Origin: Paracoccaceae bacterium
GTDB lineage: Bacteria; Pseudomonadota; Alphaproteobacteria; Rhodobacterales; Rhodobacteraceae
Reading direction: 5' to 3'
Length of the DNA stretch: 64,000 nt
Assembly: GCA_024636555.1 (NCBI GenBank)
Contig: JAGXGW010000056.1
Span: 1-64,000, forward strand
The translations under genes and the position numbers were made by a program. Below, one piece after another: positions 2,418 to 3,549 of this stretch. Position 1 is the stretch's first letter; each line of letters opens with the position of its first letter. The notes below the pieces were generated by a model. The model saw only the letters and a program-made list of their open reading frames with translations, was not told the DNA's origin and did not search any database.

Positions 2418-2933
2418 ATGACCCAAGACCACCAGCCCACGCGCCGCAATTTGCTTCTCACAGGCTGCGCCATCACCGGCGCAGTCCTCACAACCGGCAT
2501 CTCGGGCCTGCTGGTGCCCGCGCGCGCGCAGACCTTGGCCCCCACCCCGACCATGCGCGGCGGGGCTAACAACTACCGCCCCGGCGCCCCTGTCGTGGAA
2601 CGGATCGGCGGCGGCGGATTCTGGATGACCGGCACAGTCCGCCGCGCCGGGGACGGTACGCCTTTGCAAGGTATCCGTATCCAGATCTGGGCCCATACAA
2701 CCGAAGGCCACGAACGCGACGCCCATAGCCACGGGGCCACTCTGACCGCTGCCGATGGCACCTTCCGGCTGGAGATGCCGCAGATCGTGCCCGCCTTCGG
2801 ACAAGCACATGGCCATCTGGCCTATGACCGCGAGATCGACAGCAGCCCGTTCAAGACGGTATTCCTGCGCCCCGTGATGCGCAGCCCGAACGACACCACG
2901 CTCAACGCCGATTTCGTGCTGGGAACCGCCTGA
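2418..2933 (+). CDS. Tat-exported intradiol-dioxygenase-like protein
   Basis: This 171-residue protein starts with a twin-arginine signal (R9 R10 in TRRNLLL), a hydrophobic stretch and an ARA cleavage site near residue 37, so it should be folded in the cytoplasm with a cofactor and then exported. The mature part resembles the beta-sandwich of intradiol ring-cleavage dioxygenases: a GTPLQGIRIQIW strand, an AADGTFRLEMP turn and an H131-G-H133 pair at the place of the two iron-binding histidines. The region where the family normally supplies an iron-binding tyrosine (after the IQIW strand) is histidine/acid-rich instead. The next gene, a heme-binding membrane protein, starts 4 bases after the stop. 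Catalytic activity is uncertain. Confidence 0.75.
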   Translation: MTQDHQPTRRNLLLTGCAITGAVLTTGISGLLVPARAQTLAPTPTMRGGANNYRPGAPVVERIGGGGFWMTGTVRRAGDGTPLQGIRIQIWAHTTEGHERDAHSHGATLTAADGTFRLEMPQIVPAFGQAHGHLAYDREIDSSPFKTVFLRPVMRSPNDTTLNADFVLGTA

Positions 2934-2937
2934 CCTC

Positions 2938-3549
2938 GTGCCGCGCCTCCGCTCCATCCTGATCTGGGCGGCGCTGGCGCTTGCCATAGCCCTGCCGCTC
3001 CTTGTCGCGGCCACAAGCCCGCTTCTGCAATGGCGCGAACCTGTCTATATCGTCGCGGCCTTCGCGGGTGTTGTCGGCATGGCCTTGATCCTGCTGCAAC
3101 CCTTGCTCGCAGGCGGCTACCTTCCCGGCTTGGGGATGCAACGTGGTCGCCGCCTGCACCGCTGGATCGGCGCGGCCCTTGTGCTGAGCGTGATCATCCA
3201 TGTTGGAGGCCTCTGGATTACCAGCCCGCCTGATGTGATCGACGCGCTTCTTTTCGGCTCGGCCACGCCGTTTTCCCTCTGGGGCGTGATCGCCATGTGG
3301 GCGATCTTCGCAACCGTCATACTGGCCATCCTGCGATCACGCCGCGCGGTGCGGCCCCGCCTCTGGCGGCTGGGTCATTCTGTACTGGCCCTGATCATCG
3401 TGTTCGGCACAGTCCTGCATGCCCTTCTGATCCAAGGCACGATGGGAGAAGTCTCGAAGATCGCCCTCGCCGCGCTCGTCATCGCGGCCACAATCAAAGC
3501 GCTCGCCGACTTGCGCGCCTGGGTGCTGCTCCGCCGCCCCAAAGGCTGA
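2938..3549 (+). CDS. Ferric-reductase-like (MsrQ/YedZ-type) heme b membrane protein
   Basis: The 203-residue protein is almost entirely membrane helices. It has two histidine pairs with identical spacing, H74-x13-H88 and H147-x13-H161, the bis-histidine pattern of two heme b groups in ferric reductase/NOX/MsrQ membrane domains. There is no flavin or NAD-binding domain, as in MsrQ, so it probably passes electrons across the membrane to a partner. The likely partner is the Tat-exported protein immediately upstream: the start is a GTG only 4 bases after that stop, implying translational coupling. No MsrP-like molybdopterin protein is adjacent. True electron donor and acceptor are unknown. Confidence 0.8.
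   Translation: MPRLRSILIWAALALAIALPLLVAATSPLLQWREPVYIVAAFAGVVGMALILLQPLLAGGYLPGLGMQRGRRLHRWIGAALVLSVIIHVGGLWITSPPDVIDALLFGSATPFSLWGVIAMWAIFATVILAILRSRRAVRPRLWRLGHSVLALIIVFGTVLHALLIQGTMGEVSKIALAALVIAATIKALADLRAWVLLRRPKG

Follow-up and report, generated by a model that had tools for sequence, protein, structure and literature searches.

A gene for an exported protein followed directly by one for a membrane heme protein raises the question of what the two products do together. In the window, which denotes here the whole 64,000-nucleotide stretch of DNA analysed, such a pair had been described in an earlier note as a Tat-exported intradiol-dioxygenase-like protein, here called P1, coupled to a membrane protein, here called P2. 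The ORF list of the window places both frames exactly where they had been reported, with P1 starting on an ATG and P2 on a GTG that lies, as claimed, 4 bases past the TGA stop of P1 (2931-2933). The HxH noted in P1 is likewise present, the codons of H131 and H133 occupying 2808-2810 and 2814-2816, and the two exact H-x13-H pairs noted in P2 are H74/H88 and H147/H161 (Table 1). The reading that we favor, at a probability of roughly 0.55, is that P1 and P2 form a self-contained transmembrane electron-transfer system that feeds a Glu/His metal site of the exported P1.

Table 1. Coordinates of the P1-P2 locus and its parts in the window.
Feature	Position	Strand	Basis or remark
Operator-like site ATCACAAAACCGTTGA, motif nTCACGAAnCCGTGag, 88 bases upstream of P1	2314..2329	+	EM motif search
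P1, predicted exported intradiol-dioxygenase-fold protein, 171 aa	2418..2933	+	ORF, model, fold search, profile comparison
P1 Tat signal peptide (predicted), residues 1-37, R9R10, A35-R-A37	2418..2528	+	cleavage point placed by eye
P1 E99, candidate metal ligand near the site of the first iron-tyrosine	2712..2714	+	invariant 81/81, kept in divergent clade
P1 H105, candidate metal ligand	2730..2732	+	80/81 rows, Gln in L042; kept in divergent clade
P1 H131-x-H133, counterpart of the two iron histidines of intradiol dioxygenases	2808..2816	+	81/81; aligned to family HxH
P2, six-helix ferric-reductase-domain membrane protein, 203 aa	2938..3549	+	PF01794, model, fold search
P2 H74 and H88, heme-type histidines, helix 3	3157..3201	+	81/81; helix = 67-95
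P2 loop between helices 3 and 4, residues 96-110, assigned periplasmic	3223..3267	+	most conserved loop; putative docking face for P1
P2 H147 and H161, heme-type histidines, helix 5	3376..3420	+	80/81, one gap; helix = 140-164

Separation of the two genes in other genomes had been named beforehand as an argument against their coupling; P2 was instead found beside P1 in 80/80, 20/20 and 16/16 cases in three sets. The first set came from a scan with one genome per species, which gave at least 590 stretches, at least 563 of them encoding a P1 relative; the best 80 of these at least 563 were fetched and kept as loci for analysis, and each of them has P2 after P1 in the same orientation, P2 running off the contig end in L062. 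The second was a phylum survey of 398 genomes, in which the 20 genomes with P1 all belong to the class of the window and P2 matched in 21, namely these 20 and G313, where the one match without P1 is weak (27 bits) and lies inside a 500-residue frame. In the third, a survey of 61 relatives, P1 was found in 16 genomes and P2 in the same 16, the listed places adjoining in every case; the two surveys overlap in some genomes, G000 among them. Eight plasmid records also matched P1, with P2 adjoining it in all six that were fetched, and one named relative (L071, a metagenome-assembled genome) is labelled Granulosicoccus. Of 96 loci with a placeable P2 start, all on the plus strand, 36 have 4 or 5 bases between the P1 stop and the P2 start and 88 a spacing of -4 to 20. 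P1 and P2 are a real gene pair, beyond chance. Mean pairwise distances are 0.18 for P1 and 0.42 for P2, P1 being the better conserved, and the distances of the two correlate weakly (mirror-tree r 0.23), which we counted against the coupling model. A stop breaks the P2 frame on a Pseudosulfitobacter plasmid (L140:6363-7043), and in one genome (L096:1814-2302) P2 is truncated, P1 being open in both. Selenocysteine at an in-frame TGA was considered for two P1 relatives and rejected, the TGA being the natural end of the gene in L105 and the frame ending at the matching profile position in L106. Searches of phage records, viral contigs, PHROGs and NCBIfam gave nothing useful, nor did a PDB sequence search with P1 and P2 singly and with the P2 profile.

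The pair is a self-contained two-gene unit whose surroundings vary from locus to locus. At most 4 of its 129 immediate neighbors share a Pfam family, these 129 being the neighbor stretches out of 149 that were given to Pfam after omission of 20, mostly short or from near-duplicate loci. Membership of a wider operon was rejected, as the commonest other ORF cluster was present in 9 of 81 loci, counting clusters in at least 5 loci and excluding the pair and ORFs antisense to it. In the window, Pfam identifies an acyl-CoA dehydrogenase gene upstream of the pair and a beta-keto acid cleavage enzyme gene downstream; the former is common to the window and the close relative L003, and since L004 and L005, left out of the Pfam set, have a neighbor stretch of the same length, an acyl-CoA dehydrogenase neighbor appears to be common to the closest relatives of the window. 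The upstream dehydrogenase (560-2245) has 561 aa, of which about 178 N-terminal residues lie outside its Pfam domains, and 3' of its gene, at 2271-2297, an inverted repeat followed by T (AGCCCCGCAG/CTGCGGGGCT) looks terminator-like by eye; a scan of the window did not list this repeat and gave no sigma-70 promoter.

P2 matches the Ferric_reduct family (PF01794, E 2.8e-11, 44 bits against a cut-off of 28), and its model (pLDDT 95.1, pTM 0.90) has six long helices, with H74 and H88 in the third (67-95) and H147 and H161 in the fifth (140-164). The first two histidines are invariant in 81/81 rows and the last two present in 80/81, the exception being a gap in L062 at its contig end. The closest solved folds were cytochrome b561 (Z 16.3, rmsd 3.0, 175 residues aligned), SpNOX (15.6), Dcytb (15.0) and NOX5 (13.9), all of which, whether four-histidine ferric-reductase-domain proteins (SpNOX and NOX5) or fold neighbors (b561 and Dcytb), share with P2 the six helices and the placing of two pairs of histidines in helices 3 and 5; no b561 Pfam match was obtained up to E 1. 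P2 is a ferric-reductase-domain protein with four heme-type histidines, which presumably bind heme, and the ferric-reductase-like membrane partner proposed earlier is borne out by family match, model, fold neighbors and histidines alike. It differs from NOX proteins in two respects. Only PF01794 scored above the cut-off, and P2, at 203 aa, stops shortly past helix 6 and therefore lacks the FAD/NADPH domain of NOX. The second is the residue four positions after the second helix-3 heme histidine, where the NOX signature histidine (the His-119 equivalent) is located according to a survey of ferric reductase domains (PMC3591440), and where P2 has an invariant leucine, L92, four residues after H88. 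In the same survey, Arg takes the place of the first heme histidine in short YedZ-type forms, and the few short forms with all four histidines fall near long NOX-like forms (PMC3591440). The positive charge of P2 is mostly at the ends assigned to the cytoplasm. Mean column conservation was 0.80, 0.89 and 0.85 in the loops assigned to the periplasm vs 0.74 and 0.63 in those assigned to the cytoplasm and 0.42 in the C-terminal tail, the best conserved loop (0.89) being that between helices 3 and 4 (96-110), in which region T95, S96, D99 and D102 are invariant.

The layout of the pair had been likened to that of the MsrP-MsrQ methionine sulfoxide reductase, and this likeness held at the level of architecture but not in the detail of the membrane protein. 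MsrP-MsrQ (YedY-YedZ) likewise combines in one operon a Tat-exported soluble protein with a short ferric-reductase-domain membrane protein, and MsrQ is reported in two papers to hand electrons to the exported MsrP (PMC5676040, PMC5449189). However, MsrP is a molybdenum enzyme of a fold other than that of P1, which gave no match to the molybdopterin domain PF00174 up to E 1, and in MsrQ an Arg replaces the first heme histidine, whereas P2 has His there (H74) in 81/81 rows. P2 is therefore not an MsrQ. The alignment showed the same Arg in the genome's own MsrQ, with which BLASTP of P2 gave nothing significant and which the P2 profile scored at 5 bits. That MsrQ is encoded on contig C10, where adjoining Oxidored_molyb and Ferric_reduct genes answer the question, raised in the earlier note, of whether msrPQ is present elsewhere in the genome. 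Thus, the P1-P2 pair is additional to msrPQ and does not replace it.

The region upstream of the pair carries a shared promoter motif. An EM motif search of 76 non-redundant upstream regions out of 81 found nTCACGAAnCCGTGag in 57 of the 76, the window included, with a best log-likelihood of 278.6 vs 77-84 in five dinucleotide-shuffled sets; sites above 8 bits occurred in 56/76 regions vs 6.6% of shuffles, the matrix having been trained on these same regions. A strict longer form, TCACRAANNYGTGR-N4-8-TTT, gave 9 matches in 8 of 18 pair-holding genomes and none in the other 10, and by position 8 of the 9 matches are the pair's own promoter and one lies elsewhere (L172), so that the strict site is nearly private to the operon where it is present; a reversed control of the pattern gave 3 matches. 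A 15-mer form with one mismatch allowed was found at 6 places in 7 genomes, of which 4 are pair promoters, with none in the controls, and the search also gave L162 in Hoeflea, where no iron gene was seen. By eye, the motif looks like the E. coli CusR/HprR box CATTACAAAATTGTAATG, which drives hiuH-msrPQ and answers to copper and HOCl (PMC9302797); we take this as a lead.

The motif bears on the possibility, which we regard as unlikely, that the two proteins make up a ferric or cupric reductase of the periplasm, P1 binding a metal ion or metal chelate as its substrate, in place of a cofactor, and P2 reducing it so that it can be taken up or detoxified. The membership of P2 in the ferric reductase superfamily, with L92 in place of the NOX histidine, would suit such a role, as would the copper and HOCl response of the E. 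coli box and two extra copies of the motif (L161:1501-1515 and L172:1501-1522), which precede genes resembling those of ferric-binding proteins (FutA/FbpA type) in genomes of Roseibium and Hoeflea. A regulon shared with ferric-iron uptake nevertheless did not hold up, since a site above 12 bits was present in 3 of 18 such genes, two of these three being the ones that first raised the iron idea, against 1 of 72 controls. By name, no metal-uptake family appeared among the 25 of 151 neighbor Pfam families listed, which also speaks against the reductase reading.

For P1, the alignments and the model point to an exported protein of a known fold. By sequence it carries a Tat-type signal, in which R9, R10 and A37 are invariant in a 72-row alignment, as H131 and H133 are farther along P1. 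P1 had no Pfam family above the cut-off and no match to the intradiol family PF00775 up to E 1, and its model, built from 72 relatives, had a pLDDT of 77.1 and a pTM of 0.69, being poor in the signal and falling to a mean pLDDT of 62 at residues 91-100, around E99, and of 67 at 121-130, before the HxH. Foldseek with this model placed intradiol dioxygenases at the top (E 5.1e-8), and in VIA-align the best 28 rows were all intradiol enzymes (Z 10.9-13.5 over 124-133 residues), among them the phage catechol dioxygenase 9yh9 (Z 13.5, rmsd 3.7, 133 aligned) and the hydroxyquinol dioxygenase 8r2x (Z 13.3, rmsd 2.6, 126 aligned), whereas the best non-intradiol row had Z 9.1 over 80 residues. Comparison of the P1 profile with one of 31 intradiol domains from alphaproteobacterial genomes, 30 of them with HxH, gave a probability of 91.7% over 126 columns and of 87.0% in global mode. 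An intradiol-dioxygenase fold for P1, guessed earlier as an intradiol-like beta-sandwich, is therefore supported by structure prediction, fold search and profile comparison. The closest folds (Z 12.9-13.5) fall within a family of catechol, hydroxyquinol and protocatechuate types that also includes the small secreted SACTE_2871 domain (4ilv) and the phage enzyme 9yh9; from these P1 differs in always standing, in the loci studied here, beside a heme membrane protein. The fold data also bear on the suggestion that P1 has no redox role and is a structural or hydrolytic partner (chaperone, sensor or transthyretin-like hydrolase) whose part is to stabilise either P2 or the true substrate of P2. We consider this rather improbable: a transthyretin-type match is present (5-hydroxyisourate hydrolase 3qva, Z 7.6, rmsd 3.0 over 93 residues), CarboxypepD_reg appeared below the cut-off, and the E. 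coli hiuH gene shares an operon with msrPQ (PMC9302797), but the intradiol enzymes match far better, and the invariant E99, H131 and H133, the near-invariant H105 and the Tat export suggest a cofactor.

The putative metal site of P1 departs from that of the family it resembles. H131 and H133 align to the HxH common to intradiol dioxygenases and W91 meets the family Trp in the 31-domain profile comparison, in which, of the two iron-tyrosines of the family, the second is aligned with V124 and the first falls opposite a gap of three residues immediately ahead of H98-E99. E99 itself stands opposite the first tyrosine in an alignment with 4ilv that is weak (E 6.1), and likewise in a profile comparison with 30 partly mis-oriented ORFs, 12 of them lacking the HxH (probability 3.9%), in which the second tyrosine is deleted. 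The three alignments thus differ as to whether the first tyrosine stands opposite E99 or a gap, but none of them offers a tyrosine of P1, and on this basis both tyrosine iron ligands are absent from P1, as had been proposed. Ordinary ring cleavage by P1 is unlikely with both iron tyrosines gone. The His/Glu-rich stretch said to stand in their place is real: E99, like H131 and H133, is invariant in 81/81 rows, and H105 is kept in 80/81 (Gln in L042). Four divergent sequences (L105, L106, L139, L152), which have WAATTLGGEREPRNHG in place of WAHTTEGHERDxxSHG, lose H93 and E96, both invariant in the 81 rows, and keep E99, H105, H131 and H133. Given this conservation in the 81-row alignment and persistence in the divergent clade, we propose H131, H133, E99 and probably H105 as the ligands of the putative metal site. 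That P1 might instead be an oxygenase, to which P2 supplies single electrons for a metal-oxygen species attacking an aromatic or other periplasmic substrate, is likewise rather improbable: its scaffold does come from an oxygen-using family, but intradiol enzymes are not known to need outside electrons, both mechanistic tyrosines are missing, and no aromatic catabolism genes recur among the 25 neighbor families listed save dienelactone hydrolase (2/129).

Under the favored reading of a transmembrane electron-transfer system, P2 would hold two b hemes in the inner membrane, one between H74 and H147 near the cytoplasm and the other between H88 and H161 near the periplasm. Electrons would enter P2 at its cytoplasmic face, supplied by quinol or by a separate flavin reductase, the respiratory chain and a cytosolic flavin reductase being equally plausible as donor, and leave it at the conserved periplasmic loops, where P1, exported by Tat to the periplasm, may dock; this route is modelled on that from MsrQ to MsrP. 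The Tyr2His2 iron site of the scaffold would have been turned into a Glu/His site, the metal of which would be reduced by these electrons, and P1 would in turn probably reduce, or less likely oxygenate, a periplasmic substrate. What P1 reduces may be an oxidised side chain of a protein, a metal or its chelate or, if the reaction is that of an oxygenase, O2. Against this reading stand the weak P1-P2 distance correlation, the low pLDDT around E99 and before the HxH, the differing placement of the first tyrosine, the Gln at H105 in L042, the damaged P2 of L096 and L140 and the absence of the strict operator from 10 of 18 genomes.

The pair is probably an undescribed machine that supplies an exported protein with electrons from the other side of the inner membrane. 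No description of it was found in open-licence full texts; transcriptome tables may include the two genes under the names of their annotation. The superfamily survey cited above, published in 2013, names YedZ as, to its authors' knowledge, the sole characterised member of 1,755 bacterial homologs (PMC3591440). We give about even odds to the wider proposal that P1 and P2 represent a new class of periplasmic redox enzyme, in which a Glu/His site has replaced the iron-tyrosinate of an intradiol scaffold and a heme-b membrane protein with four histidines, dedicated to this partner, connects it to cytoplasmic or respiratory electrons, the whole being a stand-alone unit with a nearly private operator, scattered in alphaproteobacteria and their plasmids. 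If this is true, a second, strictly paired system built on an unlike fold would suggest that ferric-reductase-domain heme proteins serve as general power lines for exported enzymes, and an intradiol scaffold would have been re-used for an electron-requiring reaction, in a pair that is common, with at least 563 related stretches. In four of the eight plasmid records the annotation reads only 'twin-arginine translocation pathway signal' and 'ferric reductase-like'. On the Rhodovulum plasmid pRGUI02 (L136:5160-8165) the pair is flanked, as annotated, by a cytochrome b/b6 domain protein and a c-type cytochrome, and on a Qingshengfaniella plasmid (L139:1351-2328) msrB and msrA precede it by about 3.6 kb.
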